Below are positions 1-14,066 of a stretch of 64,000 nt of DNA, one piece after another. The notes below the pieces were generated by a model, which was not told where the DNA came from, made no database searches, and saw nothing but the letters and a program-made list of their open reading frames with translations. Source of the DNA: Rhodothermia bacterium (GTDB taxonomy: Bacteria; Bacteroidota; Rhodothermia; Balneolales; Balneolaceae). Both the position numbers and the translations under genes were made by a program. The DNA is taken from positions 1 through 64,000 of the forward strand of contig JAUICM010000008.1 in assembly GCA_030427885.1 (NCBI GenBank), written 5' to 3'. Positions within the stretch are counted from its first letter, which is position 1; every line of letters begins with the position of its first letter.

Positions 1-99
1 ACCGATGTAAAAAGTGAAATACTCAATTATTTCCAGTGTAAGAAGAACCCCTCCAAGTACTTCAAACAATGCTATGATTCGAAAGGAATTATTTTTCAA
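1..99 (-). CDS. Partial membrane protein, cut by left edge
   Basis: The minus strand is open from a TTG at 99 to base 1, giving 33 residues that begin MKNNSFRIIALFEVLGG and continue as a hydrophobic segment (GGVLLTLEII) typical of a first transmembrane helix. The gene runs off the window, so its length and family cannot be seen. The start sits 16 bases after a GCTAAC/GTTAGC-ended 41-bp module (115-155) that recurs in front of another small membrane-protein gene at 12881, so it looks like another cassette-style gene. TTG is a weak start; no ATG is available in this frame, and no clear ribosome binding site is seen. Confidence 0.45.
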   Translation of the reverse strand, partial: MKNNSFRIIALFEVLGGVLLTLEIIEYFTFYIG

Positions 100-114
100 A
101 GTGTATTTAATTCG

Positions 115-155
115 GCTAACATACTATTATGCGACATCATCGTCGTATAAACTCC
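115..155 (-). repeat. 41-bp cassette-boundary module, copy 1
   Basis: This 41-bp element matches 12901-12941 at both ends. Both begin GCTAACATACTATTA and end GTATAAACTCC on the plus strand, and both lie just upstream of a minus-strand gene. The centre forms a small hairpin, CGAC(6-nt loop)GTCG here against CGAA(6-nt loop)TTCG in the other copy. One stem pair has changed on both sides and the whole loop differs. The end reading GTTAGC on the coding strand resembles an integron core site, but no full attC partner half is evident here. Confidence 0.5.
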
Positions 156-10110: not shown

Positions 10111-10983
10111 CTATGTATTCCTGACAGGTATCCACAATTCACAAGTTACCTCAGGCTGTGTCAGATCCTTATCTTTTATACTCAGTATCTCGGGCCCTTC
10201 AGACAGTTCATAATTTACAGATGGAAACCACTCGGAGTAAATACGTCCCCAGGTCTTCTGTAAGGTTTCAGGAAACGGGCCAACTATATTAAAGATCGCC
10301 CATGAAGTGGCGTTTACTTTTAAATGATCCCAATCCTCTGAGACTTCTTTGGTAGTGGCTACTGCGAGATAGTGATCAAGCATTCCTTTTTCTGACATTC
10401 GGTCTTCATCGAAATTTATGGATGCCTGAATAATACCCGATGGTTCAGAATCAGAGAGCTCTATTAGCTCAAAGATCTTTTCTTCATCCAGATGATCCCA
10501 CATTTTCTCGATCTCTGGGTTTACTCCCTCAAATTGAATAGGGACTCTTTTTCTTACGCCTGCAATATTAAATGAATCTTTTTCTTCGATACGATAGTCC
10601 ATTTCTGTTCCTCCTTGTATGGATAGATAAAAGGTCATCCGTGGCCAGCTTTTCAGAAAATGCTTGCCTTCTTTAACCTGAGAAGGATTTATACCATGCA
10701 TGGATTGAAACGCTCTTGAAAAAGCATCAGAAGAACTATAGCCGTAGATACGTGCTATTTCTTCAATCGTATTCTCAGGTTTCTGAAGTTGCTGAGCAGC
10801 CAGAGTTAATCTTCTTCTGCGGATGTATTCCGAAACAGGAACACCCGCGATAAAAGAAAACATCCTGCGAAAATGATATTCCGAACAGTGGGTCAAACGG
10901 GCAGCTTCCAGGATATCAATACTACCAGTGAGGTTATCTTCGATATACCTCATGGCAGAATTCATCTTTTCATGCCAGTCCAT
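10111..10983 (-). CDS. AraC-family regulator with GyrI-like effector domain
   Basis: A 290-residue transcription factor. The N-terminal AraC-type double helix-turn-helix (residues 1-105) shows LEAARLTHCSEYHFRRMFSFIAGVPVSEYIRRRRL and IEEIARIYGYSSSDAFSRAFQSMHGINPSQ. Residues 130-290 form a GyrI-like/AraC effector-binding domain (YRIEEKDSFNIAGVRKRVP ... VTCELWIPV). Such proteins, like Rob/SoxS relatives, sense small hydrophobic ligands and often control drug-efflux or stress genes. The ATG at 10983 is preferred because AAAGGAAAT lies about 8 bases upstream; a frame open to 11046 lacks this. No adjacent target gene is obvious. Confidence 0.9.
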   Translation of the reverse strand: MDWHEKMNSAMRYIEDNLTGSIDILEAARLTHCSEYHFRRMFSFIAGVPVSEYIRRRRLTLAAQQLQKPENTIEEIARIYGYSSSDAFSRAFQSMHGINPSQVKEGKHFLKSWPRMTFYLSIQGGTEMDYRIEEKDSFNIAGVRKRVPIQFEGVNPEIEKMWDHLDEEKIFELIELSDSEPSGIIQASINFDEDRMSEKGMLDHYLAVATTKEVSEDWDHLKVNATSWAIFNIVGPFPETLQKTWGRIYSEWFPSVNYELSEGPEILSIKDKDLTQPEVTCELWIPVRNT

Positions 10984-11097
10984 ACGGATTTCCTTTTGGT
11001 GATTATTTGGAGAACAAAAATAGGGGAATTGCACCCTGCAACTCATGCACCATAATATCGGATAGGAGGGAAAAATGCGGGGCTAAATCTGGTTTTT

Positions 11098-11157: not shown

Positions 11158-11176
11158 AGCAAAGCTACATCAAAAG

Positions 11177-11530
11177 TTAGTTTGAAGTGCTTGTTGGTTT
11201 CATCTTTTCAAACTTGACTAAATACATAGATGAAACAATTGGAATAATGAGAAAGAATAGTCTGAATTTATACAGTAACTCTTCACTAATGCTGACTAAG
11301 TCCGGAAGAAAAATGTACAAAGTAGCCAATATCAATACAGTTAATCCAAGTCCCCATTTCCTTAAAAAAATAAGTACAACACCCTCAATTATTACACTGA
11401 TGCCCCACAAGGCGAATATTATAGAAACGAAAGCATTAACACTTGTCTCATTTGTTTCAAAACTAACTATAAAAAGAGTAAGTGTAAGAGTAATGTATCC
11501 AAGAATTACTTTTTTTCTAGGTAAGTTCAT
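11177..11530 (-). CDS. Cassette-like small membrane protein, 117 aa
   Basis: A hypothetical integral membrane protein with four predicted helices (about residues 8-25, 32-54, 58-76 and 88-104) and a polar, Ser/Thr-rich C-terminal tail. No family is recognised. Its ATG lies 9 bases after the GTT of an attC-like element (11534-11650), an arrangement typical of integron gene cassettes. It is the first of three small minus-strand genes with this layout; their lower GC than neighbouring genes is consistent with transfer. Confidence 0.6.
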   Translation of the reverse strand: MNLPRKKVILGYITLTLTLFIVSFETNETSVNAFVSIIFALWGISVIIEGVVLIFLRKWGLGLTVLILATLYIFLPDLVSISEELLYKFRLFFLIIPIVSSMYLVKFEKMKPTSTSN

Positions 11531-11533
11531 ATT

Positions 11534-11650
11534 GCAACTAACGACCCGGCGTTTAATTGGCGAGTCTTGAGGTTAAAATTAAGGCACCGAACCCCTCGTC
11601 CGAAGCCTGCGCTGAACTCGATTCAGTATCCGCTTGAGATGCTTGATAGT
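11534..11650 (-). other. attC-like recombination site A
   Basis: On the minus strand the element runs from ATCAAGCATCTCAAGCGG to AAACGCCGGGTCGTTAGTTGC. The right end shares an exact 18-bp block (plus strand TAACGACCCGGCGTTTAA, 11539-11556) with the element at 12084-12213. An inner CGAGT/ACTCG stem and the CAAG motif fit an imperfect attC-style hairpin, but the left end is degenerate. It separates two small cassette-like genes. Confidence 0.45.
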
Positions 11651-11654
11651 AGTA

Positions 11655-12077
11655 TTATTCTTCTCTTCTCCAGCGATAATCGCATTTTGAACAATGGTAA
11701 ATATACTTACCCACCGAAAAAGGAACTCCAAGAGTAATTATAAATATTAGTCCAAGGATTATAGATTTTTCTTGAAAGATATTTGGACTTTCACATCTAG
11801 GACAAACTAAATCAGAAGTATCATTTTCGATATCAAAGATCTTATCAACGTCTGCCTCATTATTAATGTCATATGAGATGACTTCAGATCCTTTTTCAAA
11901 ATCATCTTTATGAATGAAGATTTTGATTCCACCTACAGCTAAGGCATAATGTGGCATAAGGTTAGACATGTTGCTATCTCGCATGTAAACACGAAGCTCT
12001 TCATCTTGTAATCTAGCAAGGTCGATTTCAGCATCGATAGGGTTATTGTAAGTTCTAAGAATGGTAAAATTTTCCAA
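11655..12077 (-). CDS. DUF2007-type protein with zinc-ribbon and membrane helix
   Basis: About 140 residues. The N-terminal part (ENFTILRTYNNPIDAEIDLARLQDEEL ... YALAVGGIKIFIHKDDFEKG) matches the DUF2007 putative signal-transducing domain. It is followed by a zinc-ribbon half CPRCESP, a membrane helix (SIILGLIFIITLGVPFSVG) and a second Cys pair CSKCDYRW, so the ribbon is split by the helix. The frame is open upstream to 12161, but that part is the translated attC-like site and does not resemble the family. The TTG at 12077, 12 bases after its GTT, is therefore preferred. It is the second cassette-like gene. Confidence 0.65.
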   Translation of the reverse strand: MENFTILRTYNNPIDAEIDLARLQDEELRVYMRDSNMSNLMPHYALAVGGIKIFIHKDDFEKGSEVISYDINNEADVDKIFDIENDTSDLVCPRCESPNIFQEKSIILGLIFIITLGVPFSVGKYIYHCSKCDYRWRREE

Positions 12078-12083
12078 GTAAAT

Positions 12084-12213
12084 GCTATTAACGACCCGGC
12101 GTTTAAGCGGCGCAGGTTCTCGGTTTTTGTTGAAGTAACTGAATAATTTTATTGCTAACAAGCTTTCCAGCGAACCCTACCTGCGTCAGCCTTGAAACGC
12201 TTATTAGCAGTAC
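12084..12213 (-). other. attC-like recombination site B
   Basis: The clearest site. On the minus strand the left end is GCTAATAAGCGTTTCAAGG followed by CTGACGCAGG; the right end is CCTGCGCCGCTTAAACGC followed by CGGGTCGTTAATAGC. The ends pair into an imperfect hairpin, GCGTTT(C)AAG...CGCAGG against CCTGCG...AAACGC, with unpaired bases on one side as in integron attC sites. The roughly 130-bp length fits the upper attC range. It lies between two small minus-strand genes and its right end is 6 bases from a likely start codon. Confidence 0.55.
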
Positions 12214-12227
12214 AGTTTTGGTTTGAG

Positions 12228-12881
12228 TTACTGTTCTATTTTTAAAGTATCTGTCCAAAATTCAGTTGAATCTTTGAATTGGTCAATTGTACTTAAATAA
12301 AATTCTTTTTTGTCGCTATTGAATTCAACATCAAGCCTATTTTTATAAACTGCTCGGCCAAAATATTCTTTCGTTTCTACTTCCCATTCCAATATTGGCA
12401 GCCAAGGAAGGGTTTTGCTTATCTCGACTCTTTTCCCACGATAATCTGCAATGGCATTACCAAGGGATGTCTCTTTATAAATGAAACCGTTATCAAACCA
12501 AGTTTCCGTATCAGTTTGATATTCTCCGATTGTCAGCCCAATTCCTAAAATCCCTACAGTCCCTAATAGATAGCCTAAGCCAAAAATTAAAACCATTCCG
12601 AATACTGCCAAAGACTTGAATGCTTTGGTGTTATTATAAAATACCCACCAAAGAAAAATTGAAATTAGGAGATATGGAATCGTAAAGAATAGCCAGTCTA
12701 ATTCTGTTGAGGTAGTAGAGACATTAACTAAATAACCAATGACTGCAGTGATGGAGATTCCAGTTACAGTGCCTATAATTCTATTTCTGATAACCTCATT
12801 AGGCTTTGTAAATCGGAAAAGTAGGAACCCAAGAATTGGATATGTCCAAATAGCGACAAGAATTATTATGAATTCAGACAT
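12228..12881 (-). CDS. Cassette-like membrane protein, 217 aa
   Basis: A hypothetical protein with four to five predicted membrane helices in residues 1-125 (FIIILVAIWTYPILGFLLF, ISITAVIGYLV, WLFFTIPYLLISIFLWWVF, LAVFGMVLIFGLGYLLGTVGILGIGL) and a soluble C-terminal beta-rich domain of about 90 residues (TETWFDNGFIYKETSLGN ... EFYLSTIDQFKDSTEFW). No family is recognised. The ATG at 12881 follows the GTTAGC end of the 41-bp module at 12901-12941, and attC-like site B starts right after its stop, so it has boundary elements on both sides. Confidence 0.6.
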   Translation of the reverse strand: MSEFIIILVAIWTYPILGFLLFRFTKPNEVIRNRIIGTVTGISITAVIGYLVNVSTTSTELDWLFFTIPYLLISIFLWWVFYNNTKAFKSLAVFGMVLIFGLGYLLGTVGILGIGLTIGEYQTDTETWFDNGFIYKETSLGNAIADYRGKRVEISKTLPWLPILEWEVETKEYFGRAVYKNRLDVEFNSDKKEFYLSTIDQFKDSTEFWTDTLKIEQ

Positions 12882-12900
12882 ATTTCAGGTTTTAAGTACT

Positions 12901-12941
12901 GCTAACATACTATTAGGCGAACGAGTATTCGTATAAACTCC
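12901..12941 (-). repeat. 41-bp cassette-boundary module, copy 2
   Basis: The partner of 115-155. Flanks GCTAACATACTATTA and GTATAAACTCC are identical, and the centre is CGAA-(6 nt)-TTCG. It ends about 20 bases upstream of the start at 12881, the same arrangement as at the left edge of the window. Confidence 0.55.
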
Positions 12942-13015
12942 CATGTGAGGTATTATCCGAACAAGTCTGGTGTTTTCAGAGAGTAAGGGCTTGAGAGTAA
13001 AACAGCAATACTAAA

Positions 13016-13119
13016 GTCATTGTGAGGAGCAAAAGGTTATTGAATGAGAAATAATAGCATTCGACGAAGCAATCTCGAGAATAGGTGAGGGGCGTTGTTA
13101 ATGAGATCACGTCGTCGAT
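13016..13119. repeat. GTCATTGTGAG/CGAAGCAATCTC repeat, copy 1
   Basis: Starts GTCATTGTGAGGAGCAAAAG and includes TTGAATGAGAAATAATAG and TTCGACGAAGCAATCTC. It is alignable along its length with 13206-13312. GTCATTGCGAG...GAAGCAATCTC is a common bacterial intergenic REP-like pattern. Confidence 0.75.
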
Positions 13120-13205
13120 GAATAAAGAAGCAAGTACCAACCCAAGCCTCCTCGTGATGACGAAGTTCTTTATTTGAAGATATCATACCATACCTCATTA
13201 ATATG

Positions 13206-13312
13206 GTCATTGCGAGAAGCAAAAGGTTTTTGAATGAGAAATGGTAGTATTCGACGAAGCAATCTCAGGGAATAGGTGTGGAGCCTTATTTGGGAAATCA
13301 CATCGTGTTGGA
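13206..13312. repeat. GTCATTGCGAG/CGAAGCAATCTC repeat, copy 2
   Basis: The same unit as 13016-13119 in direct orientation. The first 70 bases are highly similar and the remainder (AAATCACATCGTGTTGG) is more diverged. Confidence 0.75.
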
Positions 13313-13334
13313 CGGAAAGTACTAAAGAAAAATG

Positions 13335-13398
13335 CGATGTACGATGGACCGAAATGCAATGGACCGAATTGGTCGGCCGGTCCATCGAACACCGGTCA
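13335..13398. repeat. GATGGACCGA / CGGTCCATCG palindromic block
   Basis: Contains the exact 18-mer CGATGTACGATGGACCGA also found at 8446-8463, a second ATGGACCGAATTGG, then CGGCCGGTCCATCGAACACCGG. The GGACCG and CGGTCC units can pair. The same CGGTCCAT octamer forms a tandem array at 49449-49488. Confidence 0.7.
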
Positions 13399-13406
13399 TT
13401 CGTGTT

Positions 13407-14066
13407 TCAACCTGGCCGTGCAACTACCACCAGAAACTCTGAGGCAAAAGACTCTCCCAGTATCTCAACTTTCTGCTGCTCTGTTACTTCAATACATTTC
13501 AACACTTGAAATTGATTCTTCTCCAGCAACATGGTCAGATCTTCCCGTTCATAATGGGTGAAGTTGTATTTCGTAGTGGGATATTTCTTCAGGCAATGTC
13601 CGGGCCGTATTGTAATGACCAGCTTACCATCCGGCTTCAATACTTTCATGAATTCACTCAGCGTGGTTGAAGGATCATCCCAGAAGTAAAGGGTGTTTAC
13701 GGTGAAGAGGGTGTCAATGGAGTGAAATTCAAAGGGAAGCTCATCAGCAGTAGTTTTCACAAACCGGGCATTGCCTTTAGTGACGAATTCAGCGTTCAGT
13801 GTTGAGGCTGCATTCACCATGTCTTCGGAGTAATCACATCCGGTGTAATTCACGTTTTCAGCCCGGGATAAGATCTCTTTCACAAAAAAGCCATTGCCCA
13901 TCCCGATTTCTACGATCTGCTGATGGTCCTGAATGTCAAGGGCATCGATGGTAGCCATGTTCATCTCCCGGTTGCCTTCGTTCATACGGGTTGCGACGTC
14001 AGCGCCCATTTCGCCGTTCGGCTTTCGTAATTGTGCGGCTATTTCTTTTAAAAGGTCTTCTTCCAT
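13407..14066 (-). CDS. Class I SAM-dependent methyltransferase
   Basis: A 219-residue Rossmann-fold methyltransferase. Motif I is VEIGMGNGFFV (residues 49-59), an acidic motif II lies in YTGCDYSEDMV, motif IV is DTLFTVNTLYFW and post-motif LKPDGKLVITIRPG is clear. It resembles UbiE/COQ5-like small-molecule methyltransferases, but the substrate is unknown. The start ATG overlaps the stop of the upstream esterase gene (TAATG), indicating translational coupling; an in-frame TTG at 14072 is less likely. Confidence 0.88.
   Translation of the reverse strand: MEEDLLKEIAAQLRKPNGEMGADVATRMNEGNREMNMATIDALDIQDHQQIVEIGMGNGFFVKEILSRAENVNYTGCDYSEDMVNAASTLNAEFVTKGNARFVKTTADELPFEFHSIDTLFTVNTLYFWDDPSTTLSEFMKVLKPDGKLVITIRPGHCLKKYPTTKYNFTHYEREDLTMLLEKNQFQVLKCIEVTEQQKVEILGESFASEFLVVVARPG

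Follow-up and report, generated by a model that had tools for sequence, protein, structure and literature searches.

Three small minus-strand cassette genes and two attC sites lie between positions 11177 and 12906 of the window, by which we mean the whole 64,000-nucleotide stretch analysed (C3:1-64000; the genome comprises 4.15 Mb in 13 contigs). The genes were recognised as open reading frames and the sites with a covariance model derived from the genome. A sequence-only reading had put three open reading frames at these places and had described a cassette cluster reaching up to 12941; the frames and the cluster were both recovered, but the upper end of the block now falls at 12906, at a copy of attI.

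Thirty-two attC sites were gathered from the genome and aligned, and a covariance model was built from 29 of them with both window sites left out; the scores given here are those of this model of the genome's own sites and not of the published IntegronFinder model. Site B (12086..12209, minus strand) scored 100.9 bits (E 3.6e-25) and the eroded site A (11536..11651, minus strand) 50.7 bits (E 1.7e-11), the third-best match in the window reaching 12.3 bits, which bears out the attC-like sites suspected at these two places from the letters alone. The 18-bp block TAACGACCCGGCGTTTAA said to be common to them is indeed exact in each (11539-11556 and 12089-12106), and its recurrence is far beyond chance, since 25 exact copies occur across the genome in tandem series.

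The attC sites of this genome follow a plan made of R'' (NNNTAAC), an L'' side (GCGTTT-C-AAG-(T)-CGG-A), an L' side (CCGCTTAAACGC), a 7-base spacer and R' (GTTA). Two bases bulge out of the L'' side, a C and an A, and match the extrahelical bases known from attC sites. In nearly all sites R' is GTTA followed by three variable bases, which vary because they belong to the next cassette. The core sites of the window had been considered noncanonical and possibly the mark of a new attC family, an idea that we rejected: GTTA plus three variable bases is ordinary in this genome, the window sites fit the consensus of its array, and the usual R''/L''/L'/R' plan with bulged bases therefore calls for no new family. 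Site B carries R'' and R' boxes around an L''/L' stem with bulges, and departs from the array consensus by one change in R'' (AAC to AAT) and one in L''. At site A, R' is intact, R'' and the L boxes are damaged, and L' has changed from GCCGCTTAAA to GCCAATTAAA. When the sites were folded, the recombining strand of site B formed a long L stem with bulged bases (z = -1.85) and the bottom strand of site A did not form an attC fold, so that the attC hairpins that had been proposed hold for site B and not for site A. Both window attC sites are eroded. Rfam at gathering scores gave no match in the window; to our knowledge it has no general attC family, and this negative result therefore says little.

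Once a cassette is integrated, its own R'' box is complementary to the bases that directly follow the G/TT crossover (marked here by a slash). Cassette 1, the attI-proximal one (12092..12905, minus strand), has this structure, with a small gene (12228-12881, 217 aa) between a G/TT and its own attC, and its start GTTAGCAGTAC at 12906 pairs with the R'' box of site B (GTACTGCTAAT), 10 of 12 bases being complementary. Cassette 2 (11542..12091, minus strand) has a G/TT at either end and a damaged R''; its gene (11655-12077, 140 aa) most plausibly starts at the TTG at 12077. Cassette 3 (11176..11541, minus strand; gene 11177-11530, 117 aa) starts at a G followed by TTAGTTGCAA. The covariance model found no attC match for it in the window, and its attC is lost save for an R''-like remnant at 11176-11186, where the end of the gene, TTCAAACTAAC, agrees with the expected R'', TTGCAACTAAC, at 9 of 11 bases. 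As to gene content, the DUF2007 type that had been suggested applies at best to the middle gene, which matches this Pfam family weakly (18.3 bits, under the cut-off of 25.7); Pfam gave nothing for the genes at 11177-11530 and 12228-12881.

The three small genes are thus genuine integron gene cassettes, partly decayed, with boundaries that can be placed to the base. With its attC sites and no intI nearby, the block is a small CALIN, i.e. a cluster of attC sites lacking an integron integrase as defined for IntegronFinder (PMC9024848), and it belongs to a sedentary chromosomal integron. It is probably near immobile by now, or largely frozen, since the last cassette no longer has an attC, and of the two remaining sites A is eroded and B shows slight damage.

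Two further features were seen around the block. The minus-strand gene at 10111-11046 encodes an AraC-type regulator with a GyrI-like domain and matches Pfam Cass2 (75.7 bits), a family named from integron cassettes; it was rejected as a cassette, since the GyrI-like family outscores Cass2 (90.3 bits) and no attC lies behind the gene. An interspersed repeat (GAGATTGCTTCGTCGAATGC and its neighbours) has two copies in the window (12925-13310) and further ones beside the C5:568k cassette block and at C5:541064 and C5:541344, the latter two just behind the main cassette array described below.

The cluster had been described as lacking an integrase, which is correct within the window and incorrect for the genome. 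A full-length IntI is encoded at C5:529082-530026 (TIGR02249, 436 bits for a cut-off of 265), the sole match over the cut-off in the genome; none of 14 control genomes gave one. The reading frame is open over 328 aa, and the protein can be aligned along its whole length with the V. cholerae IntI structure 2a3v (278 bits), catalytic motifs included; it is 79% identical to the IntI of Gracilimonas mengyeensis. The gene is followed by attI and 15 attC sites (the main array), so that a complete integron, with intI next to attI and cassettes, is present on C5 and not in the window. Of the 35 attC in the genome, 15 stand next to intI; the other 20 are distributed over seven stray blocks. Fourteen main-array cassettes were tested, and in 11 of them the start is complementary to the cassette's own R'' over 9 to 12 bases; the same complementarity was used to locate the first base of the stray blocks. 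The main-array attI reads ATTCGCATATTAATATG. In the gap between intI and attI (L039 5030-5250, and the attI regions of relatives) we noticed the conserved element CGATG...ATTCCTTACA and the box TATTATCTT; the latter could be the cassette promoter and is retained in several of the attI copies that lack an intI. The C10 cassette block has another tyrosine recombinase encoded some 2 kb upstream of it, at C10:264550-265362 (L040); its frame of 319 aa is about 30% identical to IntI and scores below the IntI cut-off.

Judged by homology, the stray blocks of the genome start at copies of attI without an adjacent intI, provided that C3 at position 117 joins C8:1 as discussed below. In the window, such an orphan copy occupies 12903..12987 (minus strand), with the crossover G at 12906 and the first cassette running from TTAGCAG at 12905. 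Its core, TTCGNNTAATANTATG/TTA, is the same as that of attI beside intI in relatives, and its G/TT crossover sits at the first cassette. The copy is 91% identical over 85 bp to C2:233711-233794, and both head cassettes; the window region 12900-13180 is 78% identical over 262 bp to C5:568216-568477, which heads cassettes as well. The part common to the three copies is about 85 bp long and comprises a GGAGTTTATACGAA element and the TTCGC-TAATA-TATG core. The sequence in front of the first cassette is CTCGTTCGCCTAATAGTATG both in the window and at C2:233k (where the attC is degenerate, 24.5 bits), CTTGTTCGCATAATACTATG at C5:568k, CTTGTTCGTATAATATTATG at C10:262k and CCTGTTCCCCTAATACTATG at C2:670k, and it reads CTTGTTCGCCTAATACTATG at C8:26.8k and CTGTTCGCTTAATACTAAG at C5:323k, the crossover being mutated in these last two. 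The attI-like block starts are thus C3:12.9k, C5:568k, C10:262k, C2:670k, C2:233k, C8:26.8k, C5:323k and C3:117.

The last of these is a second orphan attI copy at the very start of the window (117..135, minus strand; GTCGCATAATAGTATGTTA, one mismatch to the core), which reads GTCGCATAATAGTATG/TTA and heads a cassette of which the contig end leaves only the 5' part (1..120, minus strand). These 120 bp are 100% identical to the main-array cassette at C5:536891, and the identity sets in precisely at the crossover G. The 3' end of that cassette, together with three attC, is found at the left end of contig C8, and C3 (at 117) probably joins C8:1, with the caveat that the C8 attC differs from that of the main-array copy of the cassette. 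The identical cassette pair could be an ordinary duplication.

Ninety-eight genomes were searched as relatives, 57 of them from the same family (Balneolaceae), and 48 of the 98 encode an IntI over the curated cut-off. This family make-up and the closeness of its IntI to that of Gracilimonas mengyeensis mark the host as a Gracilimonas-like marine member of the Balneolaceae. The attI sites found beside intI in Gracilimonas and Balneola records include CTTGTTCGGATAATATTATG, TACGGATAATATTATG and TTCGTCTAATAATATG and resemble the cores of the stray blocks. Over 59 relatives, the attI core with at most one mismatch occurred 42 times, against 8 for a reversed control; an exact 9-base R'' complement followed downstream at 12 of 32 core sites and at none of 116 control GTTA sites from the same loci. 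In five relatives (G016, G021, G023, G031 and G003), the blocks with a placeable start are mostly headed by attI. One start, G021:C15, is not attI-like, and several others were searched for and not located. One of these genomes (G023, 98% complete) has three attI-headed cassette blocks, and no intI was found in it at E 1e-60. An attI-like core at G003:C4:764008 (L150), about 6 kb past the true attI in the cassette direction and followed by an attC, may be an attI copy lying within the main array or at its end.

The sequence-only reading had named a gene order conserved in related genomes without turnover at the boundaries as one of the findings that would speak against it. Such conservation was not seen: the window segment 8379-13406 (about 5 kb, cassettes included) is absent in three relatives (G033, G023 and G005), in which the matches to the flanking methyltransferase (13407) and DUF1080-like (7644) genes are 46 to 82 bp apart. 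A conserved operon was rejected on the grounds that the flanking genes are adjacent there without the intervening segment. None of the three showed a precise empty site, the absent segment holding other genes too. In G033, where no intI was found, a degenerate attC (23.5 bits; L214 10247-10368) lies about 1.3 kb from the DUF1080-like gene.

The reading that we favour, and hold to be rather probable, is that the stray blocks sit on orphan attI docks which stem from integron platforms and are filled in trans by the remaining IntI. An integron integrase would have inserted circular cassettes at the G/TT of the window attI by attC x attI recombination; the orphan attI copies would derive from platforms that lost intI or left it behind; and the C5 IntI (C5:529082-530026) probably still serves these docks in trans. 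The identity of the attC sites, the exact cassette boundaries, the attI homology at the block starts and the intI in the same genome are observed. From sequence comparison we infer that the integrase may act in trans, that the window copy may originate from a full platform and that the block may be immobile at present.

The main rival, clearly less probable and yet to be reckoned with, is that each block is the fossil of a complete integron, whose array was built by an intI in cis that was later deleted, action in trans having never occurred. It draws on the 5' stubs of intI next to orphan attI, both at C2:670k, where the copy still includes the first intI codons (MGKSKLL) before it diverges, and in relatives, where the stubs MAKSKLLEQ and MGKSN adjoin attI copies. 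The eroded window attC sites would suit it as well, and so would the proposal that CALINs are degraded integrons (PMC9024848). Some of the orphan attI copies are indeed what one would expect of platforms that have lost intI; for the window copy such a loss may be supposed, about 85 bp of attI homology being all that remains there, and no intI remnant was found upstream of it (12880-13600), which argues against a fossil at this site. The fossil account would moreover require several independent integrons in one genome, and the recurrence of a main-array cassette at another dock, with 120 bp at 100% identity, suggests that arrays have exchanged cassettes. Fossils and supply in trans may both be true, at different docks.

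Insertion at secondary sites, in which IntI would have placed the cassettes at attG-type sites with only the crossover triplet special, is disfavoured already and looks improbable. Use of such sites by IntI is on record (Loot et al. 2024, cited in PMC11023631), but the block starts have 35 to 260 bp in common with one another, together with the attI core, the window start being attI-like and not an insertion point unlike attI or attC, and the Xanthomonas paper (PMC12444791) describes attG insertions in E. coli as widely scattered across the genome. A counterpoint to our main reading is that the C3:12.9k and C5:568k copies have about 260 bp in common, the interspersed repeat included, with other repeat copies at C5:541k behind the main array; therefore segmental duplication must also be weighed, pieces of the main array with attI being copied by homologous recombination between repeats. 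We consider this quite unlikely too, since the cassettes of the window and of C5:568k share no stretch over 170 bp outside the attI region, the repeat is missing at other docks, and docks with differing flanks and only the attI core in common are partly seen. Chance hairpins between similar small genes, with no integron involved, found nothing in their favour and are refuted by the E-values of the model, the genome-wide array and the IntI in the genome.

Dock-borne blocks of this kind resemble several known systems and coincide with none of them. Like the CALINs of PMC9024848, the window has two attC and three cassette genes with intI only elsewhere; the definition given there is one of attC alone, whereas the window block starts at an attI copy. 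The homogeneous attC, the IntI with its attI and the small genes of mostly unknown function recall the sedentary chromosomal integrons of Vibrio and Xanthomonas. Xanthomonas also has stray CALINs at several fixed loci (PMC12444791); as far as the accessible text of that paper goes, they are not described as attI-headed, whereas every located stray block here is. The attG sites (Loot et al. 2024, as cited in PMC11023631 and PMC12444791) likewise receive cassettes away from attI, but they differ strongly from attI, and the sites here are attI copies. In the delta-attI cassettes of class 1 and 2 integrons (PMC12901181), attI fragments also occur away from intI; there the fragment replaces the cassette-end attC within an array, whereas here it heads separate chromosomal blocks. 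Off-target recombination of IntI1 between attI and attI-like sites (PMC10127599) shows the integrase at work outside an integron, but on short secondary sites giving plasmid inversions and not on attI-homologous cassette docks. The openly accessible literature held no relevant report on orphan or multiple attI, and an earlier description is possible in subscription papers, which lay outside the search.

A literature search found no paper naming integrons together with Gracilimonas or Balneolaceae, and two in which integrons and Balneolaeota are both mentioned; in the accessible text of the IntegronFinder 2 survey (2022) Salinibacter ruber M1 is the sole complete integron named in Bacteroidetes proper (PMC9024848). 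Integrons are common in Balneolaceae and look under-reported there, because 48 of 98 relatives encode an IntI against the lone Salinibacter ruber of the accessible survey text. CALINs may arise by loss of intI, by rearrangement or by insertion at genomic sites. Each stray-block start that could be read here is an attI copy, so that the origin of CALINs and their supply become testable within one genome. We suggest tentatively, at somewhat less than even confidence, that the integrons of Balneolaceae are distributed systems, in which one integrase attends many attI docks and cassettes are stored and expressed at several loci. If IntI does act in trans, the genome could have several first positions from which cassettes are expressed simultaneously, and the picture of sedentary integrons as single arrays would change.
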